Source: Bolinopsis microptera (Eukaryota > Ctenophora > Tentaculata > Lobata > Bolinopsidae). Taken from it: DNA of 64,000 bases. The notes under the pieces were generated by a model that was not told where the DNA came from, made no database searches, and saw only the letters and a list, made by a program, of their open reading frames with translations. The position numbers and the translations under genes were made by a program. Positions within the stretch are counted from its first letter, which is position 1. Each line of letters opens with the position of its first letter. Where the stretch lies: positions 3,123,902 through 3,187,901 of the forward strand of contig NC_087076.1 of NCBI RefSeq assembly GCF_026151205.1, written 5' to 3'. Shown here piece by piece: positions 27,171 through 51,473 of this stretch.

Positions 27171-30100
27171 TGCCGACAATCTTCTGCCAGGAGATCGTCT
27201 CCTCAGAGTCCGAAGAATCCTCGCTCTCAGGAATCAGATCGGTGTTTGGGGAGGTGCTTTCTGTCAGCATTTTCTGAAAAGTCGAAGTTAAATCTTTTTA
27301 TACCCAAAATATTTGTTACTAATAAAATTGATGGAGATTGGCCACTGCTAGGTACATCGCATGAGATTAAAAGAACAGACTTGATTTGAGATAAAATTCG
27401 CGACTAGTCATCGGTATACTTAGAACACGAGTGAAACATAAAAGGAAACTGTTGCCAAATTCTTGAAATTATTAAGTGTTACATATTATGACAAGGGCAC
27501 CTGATAACGAAATTTCGAGACATATTTTCATTTTTCATGCGTAACACGTCGAGTTTAGATTCTTATTGTATCGAACGAGAAACTCCATGGCGAAAATAAC
27601 CGGTGAATGATTATTTCACAAGATTGAACCCCCAGCTTGGAAAAGTCATCATCTAATTTAAATGAACATTAACAGGTTACCACCTGTACAGTATGTAAAT
27701 GTTAGAAAGCTTGAATCAACAGCAAATCTGTCAAAACACCTGTGAGAGCAGCTTCATTTTGTGGTTGAGAAGTTTGTTCCTTCTCAGCTCTCGCTGGTAC
27801 ACCCTCTCCAGGTGCTTACTGAGTATGGGTATGGGTATGGCGAACAGAGGTACTCCTGATATCGCGCACAAAGCACCGACTACCTTGCCAGCAGTTGTGT
27901 AGATCCGAGTATTACCATACCTGCCATATTGATCGTTATTGATTGTTATGATACTCAAATAGTGCGCAGGAAGGGGGGATGGTTTTTTAGCTGATATAAT
28001 CAACTACATCAGTAATCAGTACTAACTATATAAAGCTATATATTTTTACATTATCATTGTGAGTTTCACGGCTCATTACCCTATGGTAGTTATGGTGATA
28101 AGACTCCACCAAACATAGTCCATCAGACTTGTGTGCTCATCTTTATCCTCCAGGTGATGTTGACAGTCGGAGTGGACTATTCCATCACAGTTCACGTGAT
28201 CATCCTGCAAAGAGAGTTCTAGAACGATCTGAGACGAGAACACGTGCTATCTAGTCGGAATGAAATAAGGATTCGGCGTTTGCTGCACAATTAACAACAT
28301 TTATATAAGCGAGAAAATGTTTGAGACTTCCTCTTGGATATTTGCTGAGAGTAAGAGTATGACCAGTTACAATAAATTATTTTAAATTTTGATGTATTTA
28401 AACGATTACCTCAGGCTCTTTGCTTGGTTCCTCTATCTCCACAAAGTACTCGAAGCACGCAAAAATAAATACGATAACAAACACAAAGAGGAGCACCGAT
28501 ATCAGCTCCTTCGACGCCTCTTTGAGTGCGATTCCCAACGAATTCAGCAGGAGGGAATGCTGGGAAAGCTTCAAGATCCTTAGGCTGAAAGTTAATCGAA
28601 CAAGAGTGTGAAGGAATGAGTTCTCGATGACTGGCGAGTAAGCTAGAACGACCGAGATTACAAAAGCGGTGATGAGTATGAGGTCAATGCCTGATTGGAA
28701 GGATTTGAGAAATGGTTGCTTCTTGGGAGCCGCGTAGTAACGAAGGATGAACATGGCAAAGAACCAGATCATACAAGTTCCGTCGATTATAACAAATTCC
28801 TTGATTGCACCAAATCTTGAATAGAACAATGACTGATCCTCAGTCCAGTTTCCACTGTTGTTTTGATGAAGAGGAGGCTTGTATTTAGGGATTGTTGCAG
28901 TCAGAAAGCTAACCACGGACGTCAAAATGAAGATGATGTCTATAAAAGTATAAATCTTCGTTGTAGTTGAGGACTTATGGTAGAGAAAGAGAAATACCCT
29001 GGCTTGGAATGAATCTTGCTCGGGGACAGCGTGATCGTAATTATCTTGAAGTTCATGTTCAAAAGGACCGACCGTGATCTTATCATGTCGAATTCCAAAA
29101 AAGTCCAGCTCAGCGAGAAATACCTCCTCCTTCACTCCCTTTGGAGACCTTAAAATACCGTCCTGATAATAGAAGAGTATCGACTCAAAGCAGTCTTGAC
29201 GAATGTGGGGGAAGTTGAAGACCTCTCTGTTGTAATCGTAGTATTGTAACTTGTCCTGACAACCCAGAAGAGTGTCTGGGTGCCTGTCCAGTGTGGTCCA
29301 ATGTGTCTGAAACATTGTTCCAGCCACCTGGATATATGCGTATTTTGCTGGATTTCGCTGGAGGCAAGAGCAGGATGGTGTGTCGGGCTCTAGAATTATA
29401 ACCTCTGGTTCTAGATTGAAAGTAACTTTTTTAACAGTGGGTGTTTCTGGGTACCCCTGGTTACCTTCATCTTCAGATTGCCCACTGGAGCTGGACTCAG
29501 ACAAGAAGAAGTTGTGCATTAAATAGTAATGGTAAGAGTGTTTTTGGAGCATTTCATCGGTAATAAGTGGCACCTTCTTTACTATCCTTGTTATGTTAGA
29601 AGTATTTCCGGACGTAATGTCTCCATTGGGCTTGACGGCTTCATCTGTACCCTCAGGAATTTCCAAAAGCATTTCATCATTATGATCCAACCTTTTTTCT
29701 ATCACAAGGTCCAACTTGGGATTATTGCACTTCACGTTCTCCGTCACAGAACTACTGGTAAAGTTAACAATACAGGCAGGGTTTTCAATGCCGGTCGTTT
29801 CAGGTGTTCGAGGTGAGCTAACAGCTGAATTGAGGGTGGACTCAGTGCCGGAGTCTGATTCATCTGTTATCGATATTAAAGGTACACCATTTTTACCTTT
29901 ATTATCACTGGGCTTTTTCATAGAGTCCTTGGCTCTGGAGAATGTCCTCTTTTTGGACGTCACAAAATTTTGATCTTCAGGTGAGTCAAAATGGTTATCA
30001 GAGAGTTTTCCTGATGGGGCAGAACCGGACAGCGGACCATTTTTTAGGGTCAGTCCCAACCCTGGTTTTACAGCTAGTCTGAATGTGCTGGGGTTGTCGA

Positions 30101-30245
30101 AGTATTTTTCCTCAAGAGAACTGGGACTAAGGTCCATCAGGTCGGTTTGACTGGCGGATCTGGCTCGAGAGAGACTTCTGCAAGCTAGCGATGGGCTTTT
30201 AACTTCCTGTCTGGACAGATCTGTCCAGGAACCACGTTGGGCCAT
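27109..30245 (-). CDS. Voltage-gated potassium channel alpha subunit, Shaker (Kv1)-like, divergent
   Basis: Exons 30245-28410, 28204-28080, 27920-27740, 27273-27109 are phase-consistent; the product is about 768 residues in the plasma membrane. The first 300 residues are Ser-rich and disordered, far longer than usual. The T1/BTB_2 tetramerisation domain starts near residue 299 (YAYIQVAGTMFQTHW) and lacks the Kv2-4 zinc motif. S1 to S6 follow. The filter is TIGYG, split by an intron after its first Gly codon's second base; S6 keeps PIP (FAIPIPIL). The voltage sensor is altered: S4 reads LVRLTFSLRILKLSQ, missing the first and third canonical arginines, and S2 has Met where Shaker has Glu293. 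The residue after GYG is Asn rather than Asp. The turret is long and acidic. It may be a shifted-gating or silent modifier subunit; this is inference. Confidence 0.92.
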
Positions 30246-31010
30246 AGCTTGCTACGATTTATATATGAGCACTAAAGTCTGAAGAAATTCATGGAAAATT
30301 ATGTCATTAATAACGATTCAAAAGCAAATAATAGAATTAGAATGAATCGTAAATAAGCAAGTGCAAACTTCTCATACGCATCGACAGGAAACAATAAACA
30401 TTTGAAGCTGATAAATTGGTCCCTTTATTACCGATCCTAAGATGTTGAATGTTAGGGAAACAACAGTGATTTATGCACTACCACCAGTCAATTACATTTG
30501 TCTAGAACTGACAAATATTTACTCATGGCCCATCTAGTCGACAGAATGGACAAAATATATGTCAACAGAATATTCAGTGGTGTGGTAGTCGCATAGAAGT
30601 TCAGAATCTTCGAAGTGTTTTCGTTAAAATTAGTAAATAATAATTAAACCTTCCTGCTGGCTTAATTTGCGAGGTATTGGAAACCGATGTGGAACACTGC
30701 GCTACCGGCCAAATTTGTTTTGAGAATTTGTACTGTTAGTGTTATGGTACGAATAATAGAATGAAGAAAACAAATATCATAAACTTTACACCAATTATGT
30801 CTATCGCCATCTTGCTGAGAAAGTAAGGTTTCTCTGTGCTTTGCTTCGCCATGAACACAATTTTGAAAAGTGATCATGCTCGGTTAACCAAAGCGTGCTA
30901 TAATGGTCTTGTCTCTTAAGCGCATTTCACAAGTAATGTTGATAGTAACGGTATGCAGAAAGAAGCCGGAATTGTTGTGCATTAGGTAGACTGGTAGAGC
31001 AGAGCATAAT
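30246..31010. other. Kv upstream region
   Basis: AT-rich, no open frame of interest. It presumably holds the Kv promoter; no core element was recognised. Confidence 0.4.
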
Positions 31011-33716: not shown

Positions 33717-36700
33717 ATGCCTCCAACCGTAGCCAAACTTGCTCCCCAAAAAACGGGCAAGGAATTCCTTGCTGCGTCCCACTTCACTGTTGGCATGGAC
33801 AATGCATTCTTAGAGGTACGAACGCATTACGCACTGAGAATATCCATCCTGATTCTTTTAGTTGCACAAATAATCGTCACTCTTTGACGTCACGATTTGT
33901 CATCATTCAAACATACGCATGGTTATTGGTTATGGGCCGGAGGGTTTGAACTTGAACTATTATCGCAAGGCGTATATCCGGTCATCCGGTGGTTATTGTA
34001 GGGATTGTTGATTCAGTAAAGTTATGCAGTTTCTTCCAGGAAACAAAGAGCACACAACACAAGGCGGAGTTTCCAGCTTACAAAGGGTAGATATCTCGGG
34101 AGAGTTCCAGTGGAATCACTTGACGACAGTCAGATCATGCACAGGTTATCTCCCATATCTACTTACTTACTTAGCTTTAGATTTGTGTAATTGTTGTTAT
34201 CATAAATTGTCATGATCACTCGATAATAGCGGTAATGGGCAGTTAATTTCATCATCGTTAATCCTGATCCTCTAAACTGAGTTTTTACAGCAGCGACCGA
34301 GACCGGGGGCTGCCAATGTCTCAGACGAAGGACTCATACCAGCATTGGGGAGTTGCTACAAGAGAGTGGAACGACTACACTGGTAAACTCAACACAAACT
34401 TCAAGGGTCACAGCGACCAACAGTGTCAATCTTTTGAGTGAGTTTCTTTCAATGTACAGTTTCTCCTGAAATATTTTTTTAAAAGTTGAGACCGAATGGA
34501 TTTTTGATTTTAGACCTTTACTTTTACCTAACTCTAAGTACACAAAACCAGTCTCAAAACAGACTTCTAACAAATTATGATTTTTGAAACGGCTTTTAAA
34601 AGCTTATCGAGGAATAATTGGTTGGCGAGTTTAACTTTAACAAAAGAAAAAAAAGTAATTTGGAACAAAAGCAAACGCACATTTTTAACGGAATCTCCCC
34701 AGGACGACAGCAGCGGCTCACTTTACAAAGGACAATGCTCTGAAGTTTGACCCTCAAGGCCAGAAGTCACTCATGGTCAGTTCAGTTCCAATGGGGGACA
34801 GCGAGATGGTGAGGATACCGGACTCGGAAGTACGGGGAAACTTTAAGGGACAAAATGTTGATCACATCAAACCAAGCAGGTATGTGATGCTTTGGGATAC
34901 AGTATCGGAATTTATTTGGTAAGTCATTATATTGGTGATAAGGTGCTGATAAACAAGCAACTGATAACGACACACAAGGTTAAAGATTATTTGCACCATC
35001 ATTTGTTCTAATGATTGAAATGTTGAGCAGGGCTATTAAAGCCGGGGGTTCAAAGCTAATACTGAAACTTGTAACATTTTCCAAACTACAGGTACCCTGC
35101 TTACATAGACTACGGAATCATAGACACCCTCAAAACTGACAGGAGAAAAGCACCGGCCTACGTCACTACCAACAATGTACTTCCTGGTTCCTTAATAACA
35201 TTCCTTATAACATTTAAAATATATTTTCTTTCAAGCGTCTGAAAACAGAACTACGAAAAGCATGGTTATTGGTTATATTAGAACAGATGTACATAGTATG
35301 ATCTCTTAATTTACATAGTCGAGATTCCTGACCAACCCAGTAGATCTTATTAAGGATGTTTCTGAAAGTATTCTTCCACTCAGGAACTTCATTCTGGTCA
35401 GTTTAAACCGGCCATCAAACAAGAGTACGGTACAGCTGCAGTGATAAGAGGGGCGCACTCTGTGGGTCTCGGTAATGAGACAACTCCAGAACACACTACT
35501 AATGTTAGAGATACTTACTACAAACAGGAGTACAAGACTGGCAGGTCCGACATCATTTCTTCCCTTTAGTATTATATTAGTATTTCTTGATATTCCGTCT
35601 TAGTAATTTATAATGTTAGAAAAATGGTTTGAATCTAGGATCAGATTTGTACAGAAGGTGGATGATCTTTTTTGAATTCTTATTTAAACTGGCAGGTATA
35701 AGAAAACCTCGGTGATGAACAAAATCCTGGGGACCACATTTCTGTTTGGCGGTGAAGTTCCTCATGCTGGAACGCTCGACTCTGATACCACCTGTAAATT
35801 CTACCATACAGGAGCCAGCTATGGTACAGATTTGTTTCCCAATTTGATTCAAATTTTTCATGTTCCAACTTTAAACGACCATTCATTTCAATTTTATAGC
35901 GCTATATATATACTAAGCAATTGGTATGTTTTAAATAAAGTAAAGGCTTGTTATTTTGAAACATGGTTACCCCCTCCCCATTGTTACCCCCTCCCCATTG
36001 TTACCTCCTCCCCATTGTTATCCCCTCCCCATGGTTACCCCCCTCCCCATTGTTACCTCCTCCCCATTGTTACCCCTCCCCATGGTTACCCCCTCCCCAT
36101 GGTTACCCCCCTCCCCATTGTTATCGCCTCCCCATTGTTACCCCTCCCCATGGTTACCCCCTCCCCATGGTTACCCCCTCCCCATTGTTACCCCCTCCCC
36201 ATTGTTACCCCCCTCCCCATTGTTACTCCCCAGGAAGAACTGAGTCGATGAAGCCGGAGAACGTGTTTAAGAGCAGTTTCCCAGAAGGAGACAGACACCC
36301 TGAGAGGGTGATGCAGCTTCAGAACGACACCTCTTATGCTGAACACTACCCCGTGGTATGTAACTACCATTTACCACTTTGTGTGTGACTTTATTGGTGT
36401 TTGTATGGACGGCCTTGTTAGAGCAACTTATCCACTACTACTCCAAATGAAGACCTCTCAGAAATTGGTCTAGAAATTTAGTCTTATCATAGTTTACGAT
36501 ACTCTTACATTGATCTGTGTGTGAGATAATTATTATATGTCTATAAACATTCCATTCGCGGACACTGGCAATCTGGAAAGATAGCAAGAATGATACAAGA
36601 CTGGTTGTTAAAATCATGTTTGTTTCAGCGTGCCCCGGGGGTGATTCTGAATCCTAAAGTAAAAGGAGAGGAGATTATCACAAGAAGTAACGTGGAGATG

Positions 36701-39700
36701 GGCACTGATAATCCCAAACTTTCTGCTTCAACCAGGTTTCTAATGTTAATTAATTAATTAATTATCCAATTAATCTGATGAGGTTATTTCATTTTTCACT
36801 GATGATCTCCTCATTCTTTCACTGCGTTTTGGTCTACAGTTACACAAATACAAACAACTCATATAACGCAGGAGGAGAAAGTAAAAACTAAAATCTCCGA
36901 AACAACTCCAAATATTTAACTACAATTATAGGTCGTGCTATGTGTCTCAAGCCGAACACGTTCGACCTAGAGACAGAGTGGATCAACTTGTAAAGTTTAG
37001 AAACGGTTTCTCTCTTGGTTCCTTATCTGGTTAGAAATTCATCAAGTTCTGTTTTTTTATCTTGTGTGCTTCATTTCCTTGTTATTTCTTCTTTTCAAGA
37101 AAAAATAAAATGTTAAAAGATGTTAATTATGTTAAGTTATTTCACATTTAGTTAAGTCATGTCACATAATTCACCATATACTTTTTGATAAATCTAATCT
37201 CACAGAATATCGAGAACCACCTAAATCTGAAATTCAAGACAATTTCAAGGAGAACTCTGGGTTCCAGAAATTCTGCCACAACCCAGTCGTGCTTAGCAGG
37301 GTGAGGATCTTACTTTAATTCTTTTGATTTGTTTAGGGAATTTTCTTATATTCACTTGATCAACTTTAACTTCTACGCTTATCGTCATAATATCAAATAA
37401 AAAGCAGATTTTATGCTGAAAAATTCTAATTTGAAATACATTTGAAAATCCAAAATAAATTTTAATATTATATAATGGATCAAGGCAAATCAAATGCATT
37501 TAATTAAAGTAATAAAATGACTCCATAACAAATCGCATGCAACTAATCCAACTCTAAAATTTTGTTAGAAGTTCACTGAAGTGGCATGATTTTGATTCTC
37601 ATACATCAGATTCAGTTTTTTGTTAACTTTCTGTCAACCATTCCTCTCCATTTTAATTCTGAGTGATCGTTCAAAAAGTAGGTATTTCAATTTCTGCATG
37701 GTACTGCATAGTACATACTCAGATTTGTCGTTTGATGTTATAAGCAAATATGCTCATATTTGTCTGAAAAGTTAAAATATAAACTGCTTTTCACAATTCC
37801 CTAACGTCGTTTGCTACCATCATATATTTCACCACTTCCTTTTTCAAACATCAAAGGTTGCTCTACGCTGAGAATGTCTAGCCGATTTTGTCCCTGTTCT
37901 TTGGGCATCATCAAACTCAGCCGTCTTAGCTCGTTGTTTCTCAGCATTGTTGGCATTCTGTAATTTCTTTCTCGCTTGTCCAGGACTGCTTCCCCTACTT
38001 GGGCCTGGTTCTGAACTCGATTTTAATTGCTTTACACTGCTGGTTCTTCTCTCCATTATTAAACTCTGCTGTCGCAAACCATTAATCTTTTGTTTTCCCC
38101 CCACCAACAATGGTTGCTGTGCCGAAACGACTTTATCCTGGCCCAACAAAGGGGCCTCTTGTTCCACATTGAGTGGTTGTGACTGAGTATTAAATTGGAC
38201 GCTAGCAACCTCCTCAATTGAGGGATCAGGTGAAGGGGAGCTGTCTGGTCGCTTCACTTCCATATCCAAAACAGTGCAGTCAAGTGGGTCAATAGGAACA
38301 TATAGGCCAGTAACAGGATCGTGCACTACTTTAACTCTGTCCAGAGTATGACAGCTAGCCCCGATCACGCGGTAGTCCAGAGTGTGATCAGTAGAGTGCC
38401 TGTTTCTCAGGTAGTTGCTGATCTTGTCGTACAAAACACACAGACTGATCAGCACAATGCAGCCTAGGACAGGTCCGTAGATCATCCAGTTACCCGCCAC
38501 GTGGCTGAAATCAGAGCCCTCTCCTTCCCCATCCAGATTGCTCACATCGTTTTCTTGTTGGCGGGAGTTAGCAGCCGCTCCTTTGCCCTTAATGCCGCCC
38601 TTACTGGATATCAGGGTGCAGAGACACAGGAGAATCACCTCCCGAGCTGGGTTTCTAGACAAACTCAGCGACATTCCTAGAATTCATAGAGAATTTATAG
38701 TGTTCAAAATAGGTGAATGAAGTTGATTCGCTACGAATAAAAGTTTTTCAATTTAAAAGAAGCAGACAGAGTCGATGCTAGATATTATGATTAAATTTTT
38801 AGAGACAAATCAAAAGTCAAAAATATTGAAAATATTGAGAGGAAGGCTGTGGAATAATTTTATGATCTATTACAAATTAATCAAGATTTATGATCATATT
38901 ATTTAGCTAACAATAAACCTAAATGAATGAATACGCGCTACAAGTAAAAGAGAAATTGGTGAACAAGAAAAGTTTCATAGTTGAGAAAGTTGTTAATACA
39001 TGGCTCAAACAATAAATTAGTCAAGATATTCATTAAGTTGTATTCACATGTAAAAATTCGACGAGGATAAGAAATGAAACAGCAAATAAACAGAAAATGC
39101 CACGAGAGCAAATAAATTAGAAATGCTTAACGACATAATAAGGCCATCGAGGTAAATACTATTATAAATATCACATACAAAAAATCTGTTACACTATTTA
39201 CAATATGATGGATAGGGTTGTAGACTATTTACAAATCTATTTACACTTTACAGTTTACACGAATATGGTCAATTGAATGATTTACGATAGATGCCCTACA
39301 GTCCATTTATAATTCTCAAATGATTAGTATATAGTATAAAGATTGTTGTCTTAATGTTGGCTTTTCATTTCCAATAATTTCCTTTGATCTAAGAGTGGGA
39401 CGCTTTGTTCTGATAACGATGTTTCCTGGTCCAAACCAACTCCTCGATCACTAGAACATACTGTGGTATCGGAATTTGAGGACAAAAGAGGTTGTCTCAC
39501 TTCTTCCCTAGATGAGCCAGGGGGCTCTATATCTGTGACATTTAAAGATTTTTGCTTTTTAACGCAGCTGTACTTTTCTTTTGGCTTGTTTTGCTCCAGT
39601 ATGGCTATCTTTTGATCCAACACAGCTATCTTATCCTCCCATAATCTCTGCTGATCCCAAATAGGTAACTGTTGATCACAGGTTGGAATTTGTTGAGCAT

Positions 39701-42700
39701 ATGTGGGACTTTGTTGATCACAAGTGAAACTTTGTTGATCACAAGTGGGACTTTGTTGATTACAGGTGAGACTTTGTGGATCACAGGTGGGACTTTGTTG
39801 ATCCAAAGCTGGCTTTCGTTGGTCCAACATAGTCATATGTTGGTTCAACATAGATATTTGCTGGTCCAACATGAATCTCTGCTGTAGGTCCAATGATCGC
39901 CGCTGTTGATTCAGCAAGATTCTTTCCCGATCCACCGATGGTATTCGCTGATCCTCATTTGGTTCCTGCATTCTAAAGAACTCCATAGTGTCCGAGGGTA
40001 CCCTCTGCAGTACTTTTCTTTCGAAACTCTCTACGGGCAGAAAGAACCCGGGTGCAGTATCCCTTGTATTTACATCCTTGTATCTGAGATCATATTCTGA
40101 CCTCTCCGCCTTCTCCTTAGGGTTCATTTCCATTTTCTCCTCTTTCTCCTCTTTCTCCTCTTTCTCCTCTTTCTCCTCTTTCTCCTTTGGATTTGATCCT
40201 CTTGGGTACCTTCTCTTAGCAACGTGTGCGTTATCGTGACGTTTTGTCATCAGAAAGTTGTTGATCTTGTCGTATAGCAGGCAGAGCGAGATTAGGAAAA
40301 TACACCCCAGTACTGGTCCGTATATAACCCAGTTAGCCAATCCGGAGCCTTCCGTTTTACCTGTGTGAGGGCTACCATTGTTCAGGTGGGGTCCAGAGTT
40401 TGCTGCGGCTCCCTTGCTGGCTCCTCTACAGTGGACCAAGTGTAGGATGGATAGGATGATGATCAGTATCAACCTTGTGGCCGACATGGTATATTGTACA
40501 GTGGCGCACGCAAACAATTAACAAAATAGACTTTGAAGTGAGCTCATACATTGTTAAATACGTATAGTGATCTAAAAATACTTATAGATATAAAGTAAAA
40601 GTAATTGAGGTAATGAATAGGACCATGCGGAAACGCTGACATTTCGAGTAGACAAAGAAAAAGAAACCACGCTCTTACACAACGAGACAAAAGCGAGTAA
40701 GCGAAGAGAGTGGTAACTGGTAGTGTTGCTCTACCATACTATGTGTGGAGTGGAATGTGTTTTTCTGAAATACTTCATAATGCTCTTGATAATCCCATGT
40801 GGATTAAAGGAGGAGGCTTTGGAATAATTTTATGATCTATTACAAATTCATCAAGATTTATGATCATATTAGTTAGCTAACAATAAACCTAGATGAATGA
40901 ATACGCTCTACAAATAAAAGAGAAATTGGTGAACAAGAAACGTTTCAGTTGAGAAAGTTGTTAATAGTCTTAATACATGGCTCAAACAATAGTCAAGATA
41001 TTCATTAAGTTGTATTCATATGTCACAAAATTCGATGAGGATAAGAAATGAAACAGCAAATAAACAGAAAATTCCACGAGAGCAAATAAATTAGAAACGC
41101 TTAACGACATAATAAGGCCATCGAGGTAAATACTATTATAAATATCACATACAAAAAATCTGTTACACTATTTACAATATGATGCAGATAGGGTTGTAGA
41201 CTATTTACAAATCTATTTACACTTTACAGTTTACACGAATATGGTCAATTGAATGATTTACGATAGATGCCCTTCAGTCCATTTATAATCCTCGAATGAT
41301 TAGTGTTTAGATTCTACCCGGAAATATTATGACGAATGAATGCTCATTCTATATAATCCAAGAATAAAGATTTCCAGTCTATATGAAACGGAGCCAAACC
41401 CTGAATCCAGACTTAATCTTTCTTGTTAAATTCTGAGGGACTTGGAGGACAGTAATGGGGGTCTGGTCGACGAAATCTGGGGTTATCGGCTTTTCGTTTC
41501 CAATATTTTCCTTTGATCTAAGAGTGGGACGCTTTGTTCTGATAACGATGTTTCCTGGTCCAAACCAACTCCTCGATCACTAGAACATACTGTGGTATCG
41601 GAATTTGAGGACAAAAGAGGTTGTCTCACTTCTTCCCTAGATGAGCCAGGGGACTCTATACCTGTGACATCTAACGAACTTTGCTTTTTAACGCAGCTGT
41701 ACTTTTCTTTTGGCTTGTTTTGCTCCAGTATGGCTATCTTTTGATCCAACACAGCTATCTTATCCTCCCATAATCTCTGCTGATCCCAAATAGGTAACTG
41801 TTGATCACATGTGGGACTTTCTTGATCACAAGTGGGACTTTGTTGATTACAGGTGGGACTTTGTTGATTACATGTGGCACTTCGTTGATCACAAGTGGGA
41901 CTTTGTTGTTTACAGGTGGGATTTTGTTGAGCATAAATGGGACTTTGTTGATTCAAAGCTGGGTTTCGTTGGTCCAACATAGGCATCTGTTGGTTCAACA
42001 TGAATCTCTGCTGCAGGTCCAATGATCGCCGTTGTTGATTCAGCAAGATTCTTTCCCGATCCATCGATGGTATTCGCTGATCCTTATTTGGTTCCTGCAT
42101 TCTAAAGAACTCCATAGTGTCCGAGGGTACCCTCTGCAGTGCTTTTCTTTCGAAACTCTCTACGGGTAGAAAGAACCCGGGTGCAGTATCCCTTGTATTT
42201 ACATCCGTGTATCTGACATCATACTCTGACCTCTCCGCCTTCTCCTTAGGGTACATTTCCATTTTCTCCATTTTCTCCTCTTTCTCCTTTTTCTCATCTT
42301 TCTCCTTTGGATTTGATCCTCTTGGGTACCTTCTCTTAGCAACGTGTGCGTTATCGTGACGTTTTGTCATCAGAAAGTTGTTGATCTTGTCGTATAGCAG
42401 GCAGAGCGAGATTAGGAAAATACACCCCAGTACTGGTCCGTATATAACCCAGTCAGCCAATCCGGAGCCTTCTTTTTCATCCGTATGAGGGCCACCATTG
42501 TTCGGGTGGGGTCCAGAGTTTGCTGCGGCTCCCTTGCTGGCTCCTCTACAGTCGACCAAGTGCAAGATGGATAGGATGATGATCAGTATCAACCTTGTGG
42601 CCGTCATGGTATATTGTACAGTGGCGCACGCAAACAATTAACAAAATAGACTTTGAAGTGAGCTCATACATTGTTAAATACGTATAGTGATCTAAAAATA

Positions 42701-43595
42701 CTTATAGATATAAAGTAAAAGTAATTGAGGTAATGAATAGGACCATGCGGAAACGCTGACACTTCGAGTAGACAAAGAAAAAGCAACCACGCTGTTACGC
42801 AACGAGACAAAAGCGAGTAAGCGAAGAGAGTGGTAACTGGTAGTGTTGCTCTACCATACTATGTGTGGAGTGGAATGCGTTTTTCTAAAATACTTCATAA
42901 TGCTCTTGATAATCCCATGTGGATTAAAGGAGGAGGCAGCGCAGCAGATCGAACTTACTAAGATAATTTGAACCACCCGGTGTTTCGTCCCCAACGTCCT
43001 CTTTTCCTTAAGTCGTCACAGGCTAACTATTATCGCGTGATGACCGTATTGAATAGTCGTTACTCGTTTTTACTAATGCTTTAAGTTTTGACGCAATTTA
43101 ATCCACTAATTGAGACTATAGTCTTCAGGAACTAAGTTCGCGTATTCAGCATAGCGTTCATAAATTACGTAATCACCGAAAGGGGGAGAATGATGTTCAA
43201 ATAATGGCGCCTAAGGCTCATGGTAGTCATGTGAAGTAATGTGAAGTAATGATGAAATGGAGTGGACGGGTCTAAAATGGGCTTAAAGTGTTGACACGTT
43301 ATATCTAAGCGGTCTCATAAGACAGTTGGATTCTTTGGATAAATTCAAAAGATTTGTCATGGATCAGACTTACAATTACAAACTACAATTACCTATTCAA
43401 TTTCTAATTACCAATAAACTCCCGCAGCTTAAAGACAGTCACATCTCCCTGAGCCACGAGGAGGCCCCCCAATACTCCACGTCCTACAACTCACTGTTTT
43501 ACAAGAAGGACGCGGACCCCCAGGGACTAGCTCCAAAACTACAAACCAGCTCACTGCCTCTTGGGACCTTCTCTAGATACGTGGCACGGAGGTAG
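33717..43595 (+). CDS. SAXO5/TEX45-like axonemal microtubule-associated protein
   Basis: Twelve exons: 33717-33815, 34040-34086, 34291-34437, 34703-34879, 35092-35176, 35384-35544, 35696-35823, 36234-36355, 36629-36735, 36932-37029, 37206-37300, 43428-43595; phases match and the total is 1434 nt (477 residues). The N-terminus EFLAASHFTVGMD resembles the start of TEX45/SAXO5 as I recall it. Repeated Ser-Ser-x-Pro-x-Gly-Asp motifs (SSVPMGDSEM, SSFPEGDRHP), each followed by an aromatic-containing segment, recur through the protein, as in stabilisers of axonemal microtubules. The C-terminal exon (SHISLSHEEAPQYSTSYNSL) continues this pattern. The expected role is in the lumen or on the surface of ciliary doublets. 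The last intron is about 6.1 kb and holds three minus-strand genes. The gene structure is well supported; the exact family name less so. Confidence 0.8.
35962..36231. repeat. C-rich 17-bp minisatellite forming the intron 7 acceptor tract
   Basis: About 16 copies of CCATTGTTACCCCCTCC and its variant with CATGG. The final copy runs directly into TTACTCCCCAG and exon 8 at 36234, so the repeat supplies the pyrimidine tract. The minus strand has many GGGG/GGGGG blocks and could form G-quadruplexes. Open frames across it (up to 179 residues) are artefacts. Confidence 0.9.
36840..36880 (+). other. Possible alternative cassette exon of the SAXO5-like gene
   Basis: A good acceptor (GGTCTACAG) precedes a 41-bp segment (SYTNTNNSYNAGGE) ending at GTAAAAAC. 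Inclusion changes the frame of exon 36932-37029 and would end the protein early (WINL, then stop). The main model skips it. Confidence 0.3.
37844..38674 (-). CDS. Single-pass membrane protein, nested gene 1 (276 residues)
   Basis: Intronless ATG-to-stop frame inside intron 11 of the SAXO5-like gene, antisense to it. It has an N-terminal hydrophobic signal (VILLCLCTLIS), a short Gly/Ser-rich outer part, one transmembrane helix (NWMIYGPVLGCIVLISLCVL, about residues 62-81) followed by YDKISNYL, and a 190-residue cytoplasmic tail rich in Gln, Ser and Lys. The helix and the flanking YDKI motif are shared with the two genes at 39351-42607, so this is the diverged member of a three-gene family. I do not recognise the family; type I topology is inferred from the signal and stop-transfer order. 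Confidence 0.75.
   Translation of the reverse strand: MSLSLSRNPAREVILLCLCTLISSKGGIKGKGAAANSRQQENDVSNLDGEGEGSDFSHVAGNWMIYGPVLGCIVLISLCVLYDKISNYLRNRHSTDHTLDYRVIGASCHTLDRVKVVHDPVTGLYVPIDPLDCTVLDMEVKRPDSSPSPDPSIEEVASVQFNTQSQPLNVEQEAPLLGQDKVVSAQQPLLVGGKQKINGLRQQSLIMERRTSSVKQLKSSSEPGPSRGSSPGQARKKLQNANNAEKQRAKTAEFDDAQRTGTKSARHSQRRATFDV
39351..40487 (-). CDS. Single-pass membrane protein, nested gene 2 (378 residues)
   Basis: The first ATG in frame (40487) gives a signal peptide, MSATRLILIIILSILHLVHC; the open frame continues upstream but without ATG. A short outer segment follows, then the helix NWVIYGPVLGCIFLISLCLL and YDKINNFL. The tail has a KEE repeat (five KEEKE units), then a Gln-rich part in which seven-residue units of the type DQQSPTC recur about eight times, a region with coiled-coil character (IAVLDQKIAILEQNK), and two LLDQ motifs near the end. 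The repeated cysteines lie on the predicted cytoplasmic side. It is intronless, antisense inside intron 11 of the SAXO5-like gene, and duplicated as the gene at 41483-42607. Function unknown. Confidence 0.8.
   Translation of the reverse strand: MSATRLILIIILSILHLVHCRGASKGAAANSGPHLNNGSPHTGKTEGSGLANWVIYGPVLGCIFLISLCLLYDKINNFLMTKRHDNAHVAKRRYPRGSNPKEKEEKEEKEEKEEKEEKMEMNPKEKAERSEYDLRYKDVNTRDTAPGFFLPVESFERKVLQRVPSDTMEFFRMQEPNEDQRIPSVDRERILLNQQRRSLDLQQRFMLDQQISMLNQHMTMLDQRKPALDQQSPTCDPQSLTCNQQSPTCDQQSFTCDQQSPTYAQQIPTCDQQLPIWDQQRLWEDKIAVLDQKIAILEQNKPKEKYSCVKKQKSLNVTDIEPPGSSREEVRQPLLSSNSDTTVCSSDRGVGLDQETSLSEQSVPLLDQRKLLEMKSQH
41483..42607 (-). CDS. Single-pass membrane protein, nested gene 3 (374 residues)
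   Basis: Tandem duplicate of the gene at 39351-40487, with the same signal (MTATRLILIIILSILHLVDC), helix and tail. The proteins differ mainly in the low-complexity parts: the KEE repeat is shorter here (KEKDEKKEKEEKMEKMEM), and the DQQSPTC-type array differs in the number and order of units. The C-terminus is KILETKSR instead of KLLEMKSQH. The upstream flanks (40488-40820 and 42608-42940) are almost identical, so both copies probably share one promoter type. Intronless; function unknown. Confidence 0.8.
   Translation of the reverse strand: MTATRLILIIILSILHLVDCRGASKGAAANSGPHPNNGGPHTDEKEGSGLADWVIYGPVLGCIFLISLCLLYDKINNFLMTKRHDNAHVAKRRYPRGSNPKEKDEKKEKEEKMEKMEMYPKEKAERSEYDVRYTDVNTRDTAPGFFLPVESFERKALQRVPSDTMEFFRMQEPNKDQRIPSMDRERILLNQQRRSLDLQQRFMLNQQMPMLDQRNPALNQQSPIYAQQNPTCKQQSPTCDQRSATCNQQSPTCNQQSPTCDQESPTCDQQLPIWDQQRLWEDKIAVLDQKIAILEQNKPKEKYSCVKKQSSLDVTGIESPGSSREEVRQPLLSSNSDTTVCSSDRGVGLDQETSLSEQSVPLLDQRKILETKSR
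43150..43200. repeat. Decayed MITE end resembling the 54.3-kb element
   Basis: GCGTTCATAAATTACGTAAT followed by CACCGAAAGGGGG resembles the left end of the element at 54242-54376 (GGTCGTTCAAATATATTACG and then a G-run). Only one end is seen. Confidence 0.4.
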
Positions 43596-44081: not shown

Positions 44082-47000
44082 TTAGTAAAAATTACTTTCT
44101 TCTAAATCTCCCATTGTACTGCCCATTTTTTGGAGCATGGTTTCCTCAAGAAAACTATTCATCACCGACTGAATGGTATTATTGCTCTTACTGTATGAAC
44201 TTCTGCCACTGTGAGAAACCGGCTGTGTTTTCTCCACTGGTTTCTCCTCGTCCATCTCCCTGGCTCTATTTACAAATATCTCCATATCAGTATCACCGTC
44301 TTCATCAATTGAGTGGTCGTGATTGAAGGAGGGGGATGAGGAACTCATGAATTTATCCCTTGCCGACCTTCCCCCCGACGAACTGTCTTCAGACGTCAAC
44401 CTAGCTTTACCGAACATTGACGACAAAATGTCGCTCACATGGTTCTGGTCCGAACTGCCATTTCTCTTTCGCCCCACCCTTTCGTTTGAGACGGCGAGAG
44501 TTTTGCTGAGGTCGGAAATGAGGCTCTGTTCACTGCTGGTTGAACAGTGGGATCCTGATGGCGAGCACTGGAGAACGGAGGGACGATGTGGTTTGCGGGA
44601 ACTAGTTACTATGATCTGAGAGCAGGAGGCTCGTCTTGTTCTGCTATCTAGGCAGGAATAATAAGTTATTTTTATAACTTATAAGTTATTAAGTAAGAAT
44701 ATGGAGGTTAACACTGGATATTATGCAGGGTAGGACAGGCGACAGTATTAACACAGTGTAAGTACTTTGTAATACTTACAACTATAGAAATAGCTGTAAT
44801 AATTGTTAGTACTACAAAGTATGACGGGGAACAATTTTCCTCTAACCTACAGATATAATTGTCGCGTTAATACTAGCTTATTCTATAAACTATTTTCCTT
44901 TACCATTATTAAATTTACCTGTGTTTTTAGTAACGTTGTATGAATCTCTAGATACATCGTCAGATTTGGAAATGTCGTTCTTGACTATTCGGGATATCAG
45001 TGCGCCAGCCAAATCTGTAACTATATGTCATGTCCGTTTGGATATAATTCGATAGTTGGTACAAAATAAAAATAATATTGAAATACTAGTTTCGCTCTGT
45101 CCTTCTGTCCGGTCAAATAAGATATTAAATGAAAGATATCATTAAAGAAAAGTTGCACTAACAAAAGACAGCAAACCTTTTTTATCTTTTGCATTAGCCA
45201 CAGCAAAGTTTTCGTGGTTCGTCTTGCGCCTTGTCTTCTTGTCGGTAACGAAAACACAGTTGGAAGAGCTTGGAGGCGAGGTAGAATTGGGTGGGGAAGG
45301 TGAAACTTTTTGGTTTGACTTGACCGATTGTTTTTTAATCATCCCTACTAACGCGTGTTTCATTATATTGTCGGCAGCATCTACCCTGAAATTTGTTGAT
45401 CATCAGTATAAAAAGTATTGAAAAATGAGAACTTGGTAAAAACGTACCGCTAAAATTACTGTATAGAGAAAGAGTTGTGGATATAATTTTCATCTGTTCG
45501 TGTTAACAATATGACCTACTTTTCAGGTTCTTCTTTGGGCTTCAAAATATCTTGAAAGCAGAATAGGTCGGGTGGGTCCACATCACCTGTGACCATTCTC
45601 TGTTTCGCCTCCTCTACCTGCCTCAACATTTCCCCTATGAGACCCGCTGTTGCCATTTCTTCGTCCTCATTCCTACCAGGTTCTACATAGGTTACACCGT
45701 ATCTTGACCGGGCTAAGTTAGCCTCTCGAACCTGCAAAATGCTGCATTAAAACATATCTACTCGTAATTTTTTGTGTTAATTACATTATGAATAAATATT
45801 TTAAGATACGCCTTGAAATATACCTCCTGTTTCAGAATCATTTCAAGGTCTTATAAACATTAATGTGTTCTCACTTTCATTAAGAGATCTTGAGTCTCCT
45901 GACTGGTGGGTCGCTCCTTCATCAACTTTACCAGTCCATCTAGTTTACAGAAATAAGAGTCCTCTTGATCCAACATGAAATCTGAAAAGTCCGGCGGCAT
46001 CTCTTCGTACTGGACAGAAACATTCCGGACTACTTTGCAATTGGTCTTAGGGATACAGTTTTGCGTAGGATGAGGTTTATCTTTGAAAGAGACCTTCCGG
46101 CTTGAGTCATAAGTTGGCTTGCTTCCCCTTTGCAAAGATTCTGTAAGCATTAATCCTTTAGTACCTCCATTAACTTGTTTGTTTTTGACCGGTCGATGAG
46201 TTCGTTTGGGTTTTGGTGGAGGAATCTGGGGGTTGGATGGGTACCCCCTTGATTTAGTACTGTCCTCTCGAAGTGGAGTCAAAGGGATACCTGGCTGTTG
46301 TTCACGTTCACTTGATGCGGCTCTTCTCCTGGATCCTTTAGGTCTCTCAGTTGATTTGTAAGATTGATTTGTTGATGCTCTGCCACGGATAGATTGAGTT
46401 TGTAATGAATTCACATCAAATTGCGTTTGATTGTTTGTTTGAATGATTGATGAAGACTCCCGCTGTGTTGATGAATTAACTTGGCGCCTTGATGGCGTCG
46501 GTGGGCGTTGTGGCGACGTCACTTGCTGGCTAGATGCAATAATTGTTCTATCTGAAGGTTCTGACCCATCCACCGAGATTGTACTTCCTGACATCAGCAC
46601 AGTGTGAGATTTGGACCGCTCTGATTCCCCAAAACTATTTTTTGGGGTACTAGAATATTGTTGATAGCTGGAATTTGATTGAGTAGATTGCAAAGAGCTT
46701 TGGTTTGAAGCCGCGTTTTGATCATAAGGTCTCTTCACACCCCCGTTTTGCTGCACGGGGTGTATACCAGTTTTCGATGAAATTAACATTCGCTCGATAG
46801 CTGAATAAACTGATGTATCTTGAGGAGGAGCCAAAACCACACCTCCACCTGATTTTGGCTGATAATGCATTTGGTTTCTAGTTTGACTCTGTTTCTTATT
46901 GGAGCCTGTCGGAGGAAGTGACCTTACTTCAACCTCTTGTCTGGGAGGTTTTTCCTCGGATCTCTGCTGAACCTGTTGACCGTTTCTTGAGTTCGAGGGA

Positions 47001-49671
47001 ACACGATCTACCGAAGACTCGCTGTCTGCAGACTCTCTCCTAGATCCTCCGCCTCTTCCTGCTGGCCTACTGCTTACTTCTCCAGTATGTTCTATTGAAT
47101 CAAAGGCTCCTGAAGACCATTGAGACCCACCAAGTGGTGACAAGGTGCCCAGAGTGTAGTCCATACTGGTCATCGGGCTGTTATTTGTTGAAGTCTCTCC
47201 CGATGTCATAAAGTGAGCAGATTGGCCAGTACCACTGTTTGGGTAGAGGAGGAACGCTCGAACCGTGTGTTCCCCTATCTGGATAGTCCCTGTTTCTAGA
47301 ATGGCGAGGAGCTTCTTGTGAGTCGACTCCAGGGTCACCACCACAACCTTCGTCTTTTCTCTCGTCACCTGACATTTTTTGTGTAGAAAACATCTTTCGA
47401 TTCGCTGTGTAATTAAACGATTAGCAGTGTAAATAATTGATTCGTTTGTAATTAATTGATGTTATCCTGGTTTGGTGAGTTCAAACTTTGTATCATGTAA
47501 GGTTTCATCTCATTTCTCAACGAAGAGTACAAATAGCAGTTACAAGATATCTAACTCTCACCTTGTTCGAAATGCGTTTAATTTTTTTGACGGGGAACTT
47601 CTTCTCAATAAGGGACCTCATGACAGTTGATATAACAATGTCTTCAGGGACCGGTTTGAGGATCAGATAAAATGTGTTGATCTCCTCATCTGATGACATC
47701 TCATGAACCTGCAAAATAGTTGATAACGTGACTTTCAAACTCAATCCTTTCTTTGTCTTGTAAGAATATTTAAAACCACGGAAAAAGGCAGCTGTATAGT
47801 AAACTTCCCTAACGCTTGAACAACACAGTCCATCAGTAGAGATCGAAAGTAAAGAAGCTTCATTAAATACGTATTACTGTCACTGATTAGAGCATGCAGC
47901 AATTCGGTCAGAATTAGGGTAAATCATTACTGATTTCCCTTACAGTTCAGGGAAACATGTGCTTACTCACCGAACATCCGCCTGGAATGATCATCGGTAG
48001 CTTTACTTTCAGGAACTGAACATCCTCCTTGCTGGCTGTGATTACAAAACCTCTGGCTGCCTCGATTACTGGGAAGATATTTTGACTTTTAGTGGGTCAT
48101 TAGCCAATTAAAATCATCATAATTTTCCGAGGAAAGTATTATTGTCAAGCCTAATGTTAATTCAAATTGATATCAGATATTCTTGTCTGACAGTGTATTT
48201 GGTTACTTATTATCTGAACGATCCAAAATATAGACATACCAGTCTCGGTGTCAATTATTTGCTCATTCGAAAATTGGATAATTGATAATTAAGTCACTTA
48301 TTCATTGGTTATGTAGTCAATTTAGCTGGCTAGGTCTAACTTCAATTCTATACTTCTATACGAAAGCGAATTACTTATATTATGGAAGTCTTATTTTAAG
48401 GAACAGAACATATTATTGAGCCCATTTCGAATAGTTCTTTGTTTACATCATGTTGTCCATATTCTAAAATTCTAAAGGCCAGTAGGAAAACTTGGCGTAT
48501 GCATAATGCATATTGCATAGTCTGGCTAGCGTATGTTTCGTTAGTGAGGGATAAGTAAAGGATTTGGACAGCTTAAAAAATACATCAGTGTTACTGGGAT
48601 CATTATCTATGTCAAAAGAGAATTGCATTTCAATTAGCTGCTTTGTTAAAGTCAGTAATCAAGTAATTGTCTGCAAGAAAGCAATTTCTCGACATAAAAC
48701 ATGACAGAAATAAGCTTACCAGAAGCCACAGCTACGTATTTGAACTCTGATTTCAGAAAAGCCTCAAAATGTCTCTTTGTGGTAAACAATTCCGACAGTT
48801 TATTGACGTAAAGTGGAACATTAGCGGGAGACATCTCTCTGTTGGGCGGGATCGTCTTGTAATACTCCGCCTCTATCTCACTGATATCCACCGAATCCGA
48901 CTTGTCTATGCTTAATTTCCCCGGACTGTTACCGTATCCGGAGTCGTGGGAATCCATTTTCCGGATATCTCCAGATCTTGCTAGATTGTCCGTGCTGTTT
49001 GCTCTGTGTCGGGCAGGTGGTGGGGAGGCCGTTGTTAGCCGGATACCAGGTGATTTGGAACTGGGGTTGGCTAGAAGGACGCTAACTTTAGGTCCCTTTT
49101 TATCCAGGTAATTGAGAGCTCCCCGGATATGTTTGTGTGGATCTGGCGGAGAGAGGTGGTTTTCTGGACCAGCCGCTGGAACACTGCTTGATCTCTGGTA
49201 TTGAGGTGAAGTGGGGTGTATTCGTCCTGAGCTCGAGGAAGTACTTAGCGGTTTTGGTGGTGGACTTCCCGGGTCAGTGAGTTGATATTGCAAGCCTGGT
49301 CTGATCGAACTTGCTTGCTGAAGGACGACTGTGGGTGGAGAAGTTCGGAAACGTGAGCTTCCGCTTCCGCTTCTTAGATAAGCTTCAAAATTGGCCTTTT
49401 TACTGTCAATCAGAGGAGTTGAGCTTAGAGTTAGTGTATTTGTGATTGTAGTTTGAGTGCGAATCACAGGCACGAATGCAGGGACTGCTCTTAAAGGACT
49501 ACTGATCTGGCCTTGATCTGGCCTTGTGAAGTTCAACGAAACAACTGGACGAGAATAGTCTTTAATATTTCTGCCTCTTGTTCTATTGTAAATGCAATCT
49601 ACACGGCCAGGTCTGACGGCCACATGATTGTTTTCCGGCATGGGACTAACATTTGCTGAAATAACTGGCAT
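44082..49671 (-). CDS. Large disordered protein with an RRM-like segment, family unknown (1257 residues)
   Basis: Eight exons: 49671-48720, 48068-47971, 47708-47562, 47368-45875, 45731-45520, 45385-45177, 45014-44919, 44647-44082; all phases match and the total is divisible by three. Residues 1-290 are Ser/Pro-rich and disordered. About 290-440 look folded: EINTFYLILKPVPEDIVIST, then a helix, then two strands (KTKVVVVTLES), a helix (HKKLLAILE) and a strand (HTVRAFLLY), a beta-alpha-beta-beta-alpha-beta order as in RRM folds, though no RNP1 motif is evident. From 440 to about 890 it is Gln/Ser-rich, with basic and Pro-rich parts; the last 360 residues have short helical segments. It could be an RNA-associated scaffold, or derive from a retrotransposon ORF1-type RRM; both are inference. 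Confidence 0.8.
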
Positions 49672-50650
49672 GTCACAATCGAAACGTTACGAGAACGCGA
49701 ACTAGGGTAATATTACAACGACGGAACTCGAATGATCTGCTGCTCTTTACTATCTCATCTCGCTTGCTCACAAGCATGAAGAAGGCAACCTCTATTTATC
49801 ATATAATGGTCTAATAGCGTAGGTTAAGTGAGTGCACTAAATGTGTAGTCATGTGACCTCAGGCAGGAACCACATTGGACCTCCGCTGTCTCCGCAAAGA
49901 TTAGGCGGCATTATTGCAGGCACAATTTGCCCATTTGGATATCTTACATACAATTTAGGGCACGTCATATCTGTCATTATTATGCCCTAGTTCGATTTCT
50001 CCGAGTAGAAGCTGGCAGACAGTAAATAATAACACATACTGGCTTTCTACCGGTGCTCTACAACGGTTAGGTCATGTCCACGATAGAGGGCTTTTGTAAA
50101 CTAAATTTCATCACAGCACACTGACTCCAAAAGGCCGTAGGGAGATGTTTATTATGTATGTGGCCAGGCTTCTTCCCTTGTTTTATTTAGTTTAATGTTT
50201 AACTGGGCAGTTAAAGTCGGAGTAAGAAGTGCGGTGTTGAGATTAATGCGATTTGGCCAAGAGCGATGGGATGCAGATTAGAACTGAACAAAGGAAATTG
50301 TTGTAGAATACAGAATAGACATTTGCTTTGTGATGTTAAGACGAAATTAAAAATAGCCTTTGCAATTGCATTTGAATCTACCGTAATATTCCCTATGGCC
50401 TGCATAACTATAAGAAAAGAAGCAGCAACAATATTCACAGCTGGCAGCCATGAGAAGGCCTATATAATTATATTGTATGGCTCACAATTCGTCTAAAATG
50501 AAGCCAGCAAGCGCTTAACTTTTGTCCTGAATATATCGCAGTTAAGCTTATCATGAATTACTCATTCGAACACATTAAGGCTAAGCAACGAGGGTCCTGT
50601 GTCGGTGTCATGTGTTAGAGGGTAATAGATAATATCTCACTTTAGGGTTT

Positions 50651-50837
50651 GTCGAACTAGATTACACGTGTTGAACTACAGTACCTGTTGAACTACAGTA
50701 CGTGTTGAACTACAGTACGTGTCGAACTACAGTACGTGTTGAACTACAGTACGCGTCGAACTACAGTACGTGTTGAACTACAGTACGCGTCGAACTACAG
50801 TACGTGTTGAACTACAGTACGCGTCGAACTAGATTAC
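50651..50837. repeat. 17-bp minisatellite bracketed by identical variant units
   Basis: About ten copies of the 17-bp unit ACGTGTTGAACTACAGT with ACGCGTCGAAC variants. The first and last units both carry the variant GTCGAACTAGATTAC, giving matching ends. Confidence 0.85.
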
Positions 50838-51473
50838 GACCTAATATATTATTATTATTTTATTAGGCTGTAACTAAACCTTGTTTTGCTTAAAGGCACA
50901 AAATTACAGAAGCAAAATCAAGCCATGAAGTTTCAACTTGACATGAGCCTGAACATATCATTTGCAGTATCAACGAGACTTATGAGATAAGAAGTTTGAT
51001 GGTGCTAGATTCTTAGTGACAGTGTGGTTTCTGGACTGGGGACATCAGTAATCAGTAATGCAACATTCTGAATTAGAACGTAGCATTACTGGTCCCGAGT
51101 CTGCTTGAGTTTTAGGCACTCATACAGTTTATAACTATTTCCGGGAATTATATGCAACAAAACTCGTCGACACTGAGAGCTGATAATTTGCAGATTTTCC
51201 CCGCAAGGAACCGAAGGTATTATATGAGCACATATTGCGAGTCACCTCGGACTGGCTGGCAGGAAGTTTCAAAACAAATAACAGTGGCGCACTTACATAT
51301 ATTAGATTATTACACACTATATTGTATCATGCGCACGTATCATATTACACATCTTACAGGAGCCACCGTCAATAGTTATTGTATTGTAATGTTCTTATCG
51401 AAAGCAAGATTTTATTCAAGCGGAAGCAGGAAACCTCGACATTAACCCAAACTGAAACTGAAAGGTAGGCTTT

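Follow-up and report, generated by a model that had tools for sequence, protein, structure and literature searches.

A 64,000-nucleotide stretch of the genome of the ctenophore Bolinopsis microptera (NCBI RefSeq assembly GCF_026151205.1, contig NC_087076.1, positions 3,123,902 to 3,187,901 of the forward strand), referred to here as the window and numbered from its first letter, carries three related genes that lie head to tail on the minus strand. These are gene C (41483–42607, 374 amino acids (aa)), gene B (39351–40487, 378 aa) and gene A (37844–38674, 276 aa). Each of them is a single-exon open reading frame (ORF) running from ATG to stop; C and B are the upstream and the downstream copy in a tandem duplicate, and A is a diverged member with a tail devoid of tandem repeats. 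An original prediction, made from the letters of this DNA alone, had called the genes intronless and clustered, which holds at the ORF level, while the untranslated parts may still contain introns.

Several lines of evidence indicate that the three ORFs are coding. Their stop-to-stop runs comprise 279 (A), 388 (B) and 384 codons (C). By comparison, when the region of 6801 nt was simulated 200 times under a first-order Markov model, the longest runs did not exceed 188 codons (median 110). Moreover, all three share the plan that had been put forward for them, i.e. a hydrophobic N-terminus, a short Gly/Ser/Asn-rich part with an invariant KGAAANS segment, a near-identical helix that ends in SLC(L/V)LYDKI, and a long tail. 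Further copies were not found in the window by tblastn searches with the N-terminal 110 aa of A, B and C as queries at E values up to 1. Judged by sequence, A, B and C thus are a real, small and uncharacterised family of predicted membrane proteins, which is smaller and less uniform than first described.

Shared N-terminal part and membrane helix

Within the short outer part, KGAAANS is encoded at 38564–38584 in A, 40395–40415 in B and 42515–42535 in C, in each case on the minus strand. It is followed by the membrane helix, which reads WMIYGPVLGCIVLISLCVL in A (38432–38488, minus strand, with YDKI at 38420–38431) and WVIYGPVLGCIFLISLCLL in both B (40275–40331, minus strand, with YDKI at 40263–40274) and C (42395–42451, minus strand, with YDKI at 42383–42394). 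The consensus of the three is W(V/M)IYGPVLGCI(F/V)LISLC(L/V)L, continued by YDKI(N/S)N(F/Y)L.

At the DNA level, this region is far less uniform. Over 28 helix codons, A and B differ at 23 of 84 nucleotides, with 5, 3 and 15 differences at codon positions 1, 2 and 3, respectively. The corresponding proportions of synonymous (pS) and nonsynonymous (pN) differences are 0.685 and 0.135 for A vs. B, and 0.685 and 0.151 for A vs. C. Likewise, the KGAAANS codons of A are separated from those of B by five synonymous differences and not a single nonsynonymous one. As most of the changes that set A apart from B/C in the helix and in KGAAANS are synonymous, the family is real, and since the residues are kept at far-diverged synonymous sites, the helix is conserved as protein and not as DNA. 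The relationship also extends to the putative signal peptide and outer part, for which the comparison of A with B gave a score of 61 that was reached by none of 2000 shuffles. The earlier view that the family changes quickly is appropriate for the tails, but not for the nearly invariant helix.

Tails and tandem duplication

The tails that follow YDKI extend over 191 (A), 303 (B) and 299 residues (C). They had been portrayed as Gln-rich and repetitive, which is correct for B and C, with Gln contents of 11.2% and 11.0%, but not for A, where Gln accounts for 8.4% and is outnumbered by Ser, and where a tandem-repeat scan detected no repeat inside the gene, neither of the Lys/Glu (K/E) nor of the heptad type. 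The same scan identified a 9-nt repeat in B (40134–40186, minus strand, 5.9 copies) that codes for a K/E-rich juxtamembrane stretch, and a 9/18-nt repeat in C (42258–42308, minus strand) that also codes for a K/E-rich stretch. In addition, sixteen units of seven residues follow one another in both tails (39582–39917 in B and 41711–42046 in C, both on the minus strand); they were framed by eye, and the last three are looser. Tandem arrays of 21 nt were located by the scan within these tracts, at 39670–39803 in B and 41799–41952 in C, and the central heptads are SPTCDQQ-like and track this 21-nt repeat.

A coiled coil along the whole heptad array is unlikely because the central units contain proline. 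The heptads were also considered as parts of a neuropeptide precursor. This was rejected on inspection, given that the central SPTCDQQ-like units are without dibasic separators (RR and RK are present among the first units) and that, relative to the helix, the array resides in the tail. Tandem arrays were further observed elsewhere in the window, at 35962–36230, 50666–50838, 57122–57257 and 62025–62123, with units of 17, 34 (17), 9 and 10 nt, respectively. Short tandem repeats are hence common in the window, so that those in the coding sequences of B and C stand out less.

Similarity between the tail of A and those of B and C is marginal. The comparison with B yielded a Z value of 3.7, with 13 of 2000 shuffles reaching the score, and that with C a Z value of 3.2 (23 of 2000). 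When the tail of A was compared with two non-repeat pieces of B, 183 and 399 of 2000 shuffles reached the respective scores. With shuffle results this weak, it is not demonstrated that the tails of A and B/C descend from a common ancestor. Two PLL motifs can be found in each of the three tails, and EQEAPLLGQDK of A resembles EQSVPLLDQRK of B and C.

The proteins had been regarded as a three-member family. Three coding ORFs are indeed present, but B and C belong to duplication units of about 2.1 kb, which hold the genes together with their flanks (38839–40817 for B and 40810–42937 for C, both on the minus strand) and are 93% identical in DNA in two alignments of 1461 and 503 nt. By sequence, B and C thus represent a tandem duplication of young age in the present assembly, and the family hence consists of two lineages rather than three independent members. 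Between the two units, 6 of 330 nt are substituted in the 5' flank, which is free of gaps, compared to 26 of 585 and 12 of 234 nt in those coding parts that exclude the heptads, and 24 of 504 nt in the 3' flank. The heptad tract itself is strongly different. The coding alignment harbors one internal gap of 9 nt and another of 101 nt that falls on the last codons, whereas the 3' flank (512 nt) displays a gap of 52 nt just past the stop, followed by gaps of 2, 2, 5, 9, 2 and 1 nt. Consequently, about 153 nt of C are missing from B beside its stop (39336–39355), and the last residues differ (KSQH vs. KSR). Overall, the gap pattern leans towards maintained coding. Inspection by eye moreover revealed the word GCCTCCTC at the upstream boundary of C and at the junction, and GCCTTCCTC, i.e. 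GCCTCCTC with one extra T, at the downstream boundary of B, so that the match needs a one-base gap. As a weak clue, this shared word could be a trace of duplication by short homology.

Predicted topology and possible function

Each protein possesses one strongly hydrophobic internal segment, for which the best 19-residue window has a mean hydropathy of 2.25–2.28. At the N-terminus, no 19-residue window exceeds a mean of 1.4 in A, while B and C pass this value. The 15 residues before the helix carry net charges of −4 (A), 0 (B) and −3 (C), compared to +1 in all three proteins for the 15 residues from YDKI on. Lys and Arg are similarly distributed, with 0, 1 and 1 residues among the 15 before the helix and 4, 7 and 7 among the 25 after it in A, B and C, respectively. 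By the positive-inside rule, this distribution fits a cytosolic tail. AlphaFold2 models of A and B, which were built on three sequences and reached predicted template modeling (pTM) scores of 0.20 and 0.24, contain an N-terminal helix and one long helix each (residues 56–96 in A and 51–85 in B). The predicted local distance difference test (pLDDT) values average 46.8 and 45.9, and those of 188 of the 276 residues of A and 255 of the 378 residues of B are below 50. The membrane helix is the best-scoring part of the A model and has block means of 66 and 63 in that of B. At low confidence, the latter also places helices at both ends of the heptad array and none in its centre. Hydropathy, flanking charge and these low-confidence models agree, and a type I single-pass orientation fits.

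From this, we infer a tentative scheme that we prefer, even though we rate its chance at somewhat less than even: A, B and C would be type I single-pass proteins in which a constrained helix makes intramembrane contacts and the tail makes cytosolic contacts specific to each paralogue. The hydrophobic N-terminus would target the chain to the secretory pathway, with the 30–40 residue Gly/Ser/Asn-rich part facing the outside or the lumen, one helix spanning the membrane, and the long tail, largely without confident structure, situated in the cytosol. The helix and the LYDKI boundary would carry the shared function. GxxxG patterns are significant for helix packing in membranes. Within this scheme, the helix most probably packs against itself via GPVLG, which has this pattern, or against a partner membrane protein, to which it might serve as an assembly or auxiliary subunit. 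An anchor requires hydrophobicity and not these particular residues; as both lineages keep the helix together with its inner boundary, it is presumably more than an anchor. The diverging tails may then provide each paralogue with its own cytosolic contacts, via heptad and K/E repeats in B and C and via another sequence in A. If this is true, the family would be a clean case of a membrane helix that is conserved across far-diverged synonymous sites while the tails turn over, and the conservation of the helix would point to a partner in the membrane. Otherwise, A, B and C would represent one of many uncharacterised single-span families, and the family probably is an ordinary uncharacterised one.

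A number of observations weigh against this scheme. The substitutions in the helix are too few to reveal a constrained face, and the N-terminal hydrophobic segment could be uncleaved and form a second membrane segment. Since the alignment underlying the models is shallow, low pLDDT may not mean disorder. Helices predicted in the tail of B (residues 184–223 and 274–299) reach block means of up to 65 and 69 and thus match the membrane helix, so that this tail need not be disordered throughout according to the model. Outside the heptads, the divergence between the coding parts of B and C is similar to that of the 3' flank and exceeds that of the 5' flank. The ratio of nonsynonymous to synonymous divergence (dN/dS) is 0.75 overall and 0.84 outside the heptads (dN 0.043, dS 0.050), and reaches 2.4 in the C-terminal part, on 9 changes only. 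With a coding divergence not lower than that of the flanks and a ratio of 0.84, amino-acid constraint since the duplication is not demonstrated. Finally, no homologue of known function emerged from Pfam and Protein Data Bank (PDB) searches.

These divergence data are also what one would expect if the three were young orphan proteins in which only membrane insertion matters, with tails under little selection and repeats that reflect minisatellite drift, as dN is close to dS outside the heptads, the heptad tract has strongly changed, the flanks are no more divergent than the coding sequence, and the repeats track DNA units of 21 and 9 nt. Yet, the strong constraint seen in the helix and in KGAAANS since the older split between A and B speaks against this, and the reading frame of B and C was kept with a single in-frame internal gap as opposed to several non-triplet gaps in the 3' flank, although the 5' flank is gapless too. 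The chance of encountering no stop would be about 0.16 after 35 random substitutions; a value of 0.013 after 84 substitutions is misleadingly low owing to the repeat tract. Taken together, we regard this orphan reading as improbable. A comparably low probability is assigned to endomembrane sorting, in which the PLL motifs, together with YDKI as a motif of the YxxPhi type, would route the proteins to endosomes, lysosome-like organelles or secretory granules, with the rest acting as filler. The invariance of YDKI and the two PLL motifs per tail suit this idea, as does the alignment of EQEAPLLGQDK (A) with EQSVPLLDQRK (B/C) in the C-terminal comparison of A and B. However, that similarity lies within the shuffle range (the above 399 of 2000), YDKI is located directly at the membrane edge and hence nearer than is generally expected for such signals, and, by eye, an acidic residue at the position canonical for the [DE]xxxL[LI] motif as commonly given is missing from all six PLL sites.

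Other alternatives concern the size and identity of the family. B and C might be two alleles of one gene that were set in tandem by an assembly error, which would leave a two-member family. The 93% identity with homology that extends into both flanks is compatible with this, and the 6 of 330 substitutions in the upstream flank are within the heterozygosity generally known from some outbred marine invertebrates. The breakpoint word, which a real duplication could leave, and the difference of 4–5% in the coding parts outside the heptads, which exceeds that of the upstream flank, both speak weakly for two genes, and we doubt the allelic explanation. Membership as a distant relative in the FAM176/EVA1 family is far less probable still. 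It was suggested by a weak Pfam match of B (15 bits, E 0.022, residues 65–127), which falls short of the PF14851 gathering cut-off of 31.5 bits; neither A nor C was listed at E values up to 10, nor was B once it had been cut back to residues 1–94 and had thereby lost the K/E stretch, and the three trimmed N-termini gave no such match. A more far-reaching version of the preferred single-pass scheme is that of an undescribed family in which the near-invariant helix is a dedicated intramembrane binding module, by which the protein would join a channel or receptor as auxiliary subunit, and is reused with rapidly exchanged cytosolic tails, one of them built from multiplying SPTCDQQ-type heptads. 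This version appears unlikely at present.

Neighbouring genes, searches and related plans

Twenty other ORFs of the window were scanned with Pfam at E limits of 0.1 and 0.05. Two gave matches above the cut-off, two were limited to sub-threshold matches, and 16 had none. Above the cut-off are a voltage-gated potassium-channel-like gene on the minus strand (27731–30251) with BTB_2 and Ion_trans domains, and a single-ORF multicopper oxidase on the plus strand (59393–61234) with three Cu-oxidase matches and an N-terminal hydrophobic segment. Exon ends placed by eye at about 28079 and 27921 supply the channel with a TIGYGN filter, and the odd filter of its raw ORF can hence be ascribed to splicing. 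We further take 8294–14085 (minus strand) to encode GATA-type zinc fingers, with a standard finger at about 8782–8719 and a possible diverged one that ends near 14085. The zinc fingers, the channel gene and the oxidase are in keeping with an animal genome, although each by itself could also occur in other eukaryotes. Upstream of the A/B/C cluster, long Ser/Gln/Pro-rich ORFs at 44082–49686 (minus strand) are perhaps exons of one gene; four ORFs within this region had no Pfam match. Rfam at gathering scores and a tRNA search yielded nothing in the window.

In Pfam-A, none of the three full proteins and none of five protein pieces scored above a curated cut-off. Eight sub-threshold matches of the full proteins, five to B (helix and K/E stretch) and three to C (heptads), were rejected, as were three of the pieces. 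The C-terminal domain of herpesvirus Gp350 (PF20678) matched only C (19.1 bits, E 0.00066, cut-off 26.4) at residues 215–272, i.e. in the heptad array; this was the best of the three matches to C and is considered compositional. Sequence searches of the PDB with A and B returned nothing significant (best E values 1.2 for B and 1.4 for A), and a profile built from the N-termini of all three proteins found no entry at E values up to 10. A tblastn search of a phage collection with B matched one record (E 0.04, 29.7% identity, query residues 205–372) in the Gln-rich tail, again taken as compositional. In contig scans, the peptide patterns occurred at 161 viral and 45 prokaryotic stretches, of which none was confirmed; as such collections are poor places to look for a gene of this kind, absence there says little about the lineage-specific invention that had been proposed. 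KCNE-type subunits, considered as candidates, were not represented among the Pfam matches of proteins and pieces, a result obtained without a dedicated comparison. Among the literature matches listed, no title dealt with the A/B/C family, which is weak evidence.

Three known systems lend themselves to comparison. FAM176/EVA1 is a family of single-pass membrane proteins. Pfam PF14851 describes this transmembrane family, and the weak match of B spans the helix end and the K/E stretch, but it is far under the cut-off, restricted to one of the three paralogues, and no longer listed without the K/E-rich stretch. Another parallel in overall plan is SPE-56 from Caenorhabditis elegans, which is described as a single-pass membrane protein of restricted taxonomic range that lacks known domains and has a disordered cytosolic C-terminal region (PMC13070043). 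A, B and C would resemble it in these features. This is an analogy of plan only; no signal peptide is reported for SPE-56, and its membrane segment is placed at residues 218–233 (PMC13070043). EAT-18 from nematodes is reported to be a small protein with a single membrane span and no homologues in vertebrates, and to assist a nicotinic receptor as an auxiliary protein (PMC7173930). With 71 or 78 aa (PMC7173930), it differs from A, B and C in having no long tail, and the likeness is again one of plan only, but its auxiliary function is of the type that we propose for the A/B/C helix.

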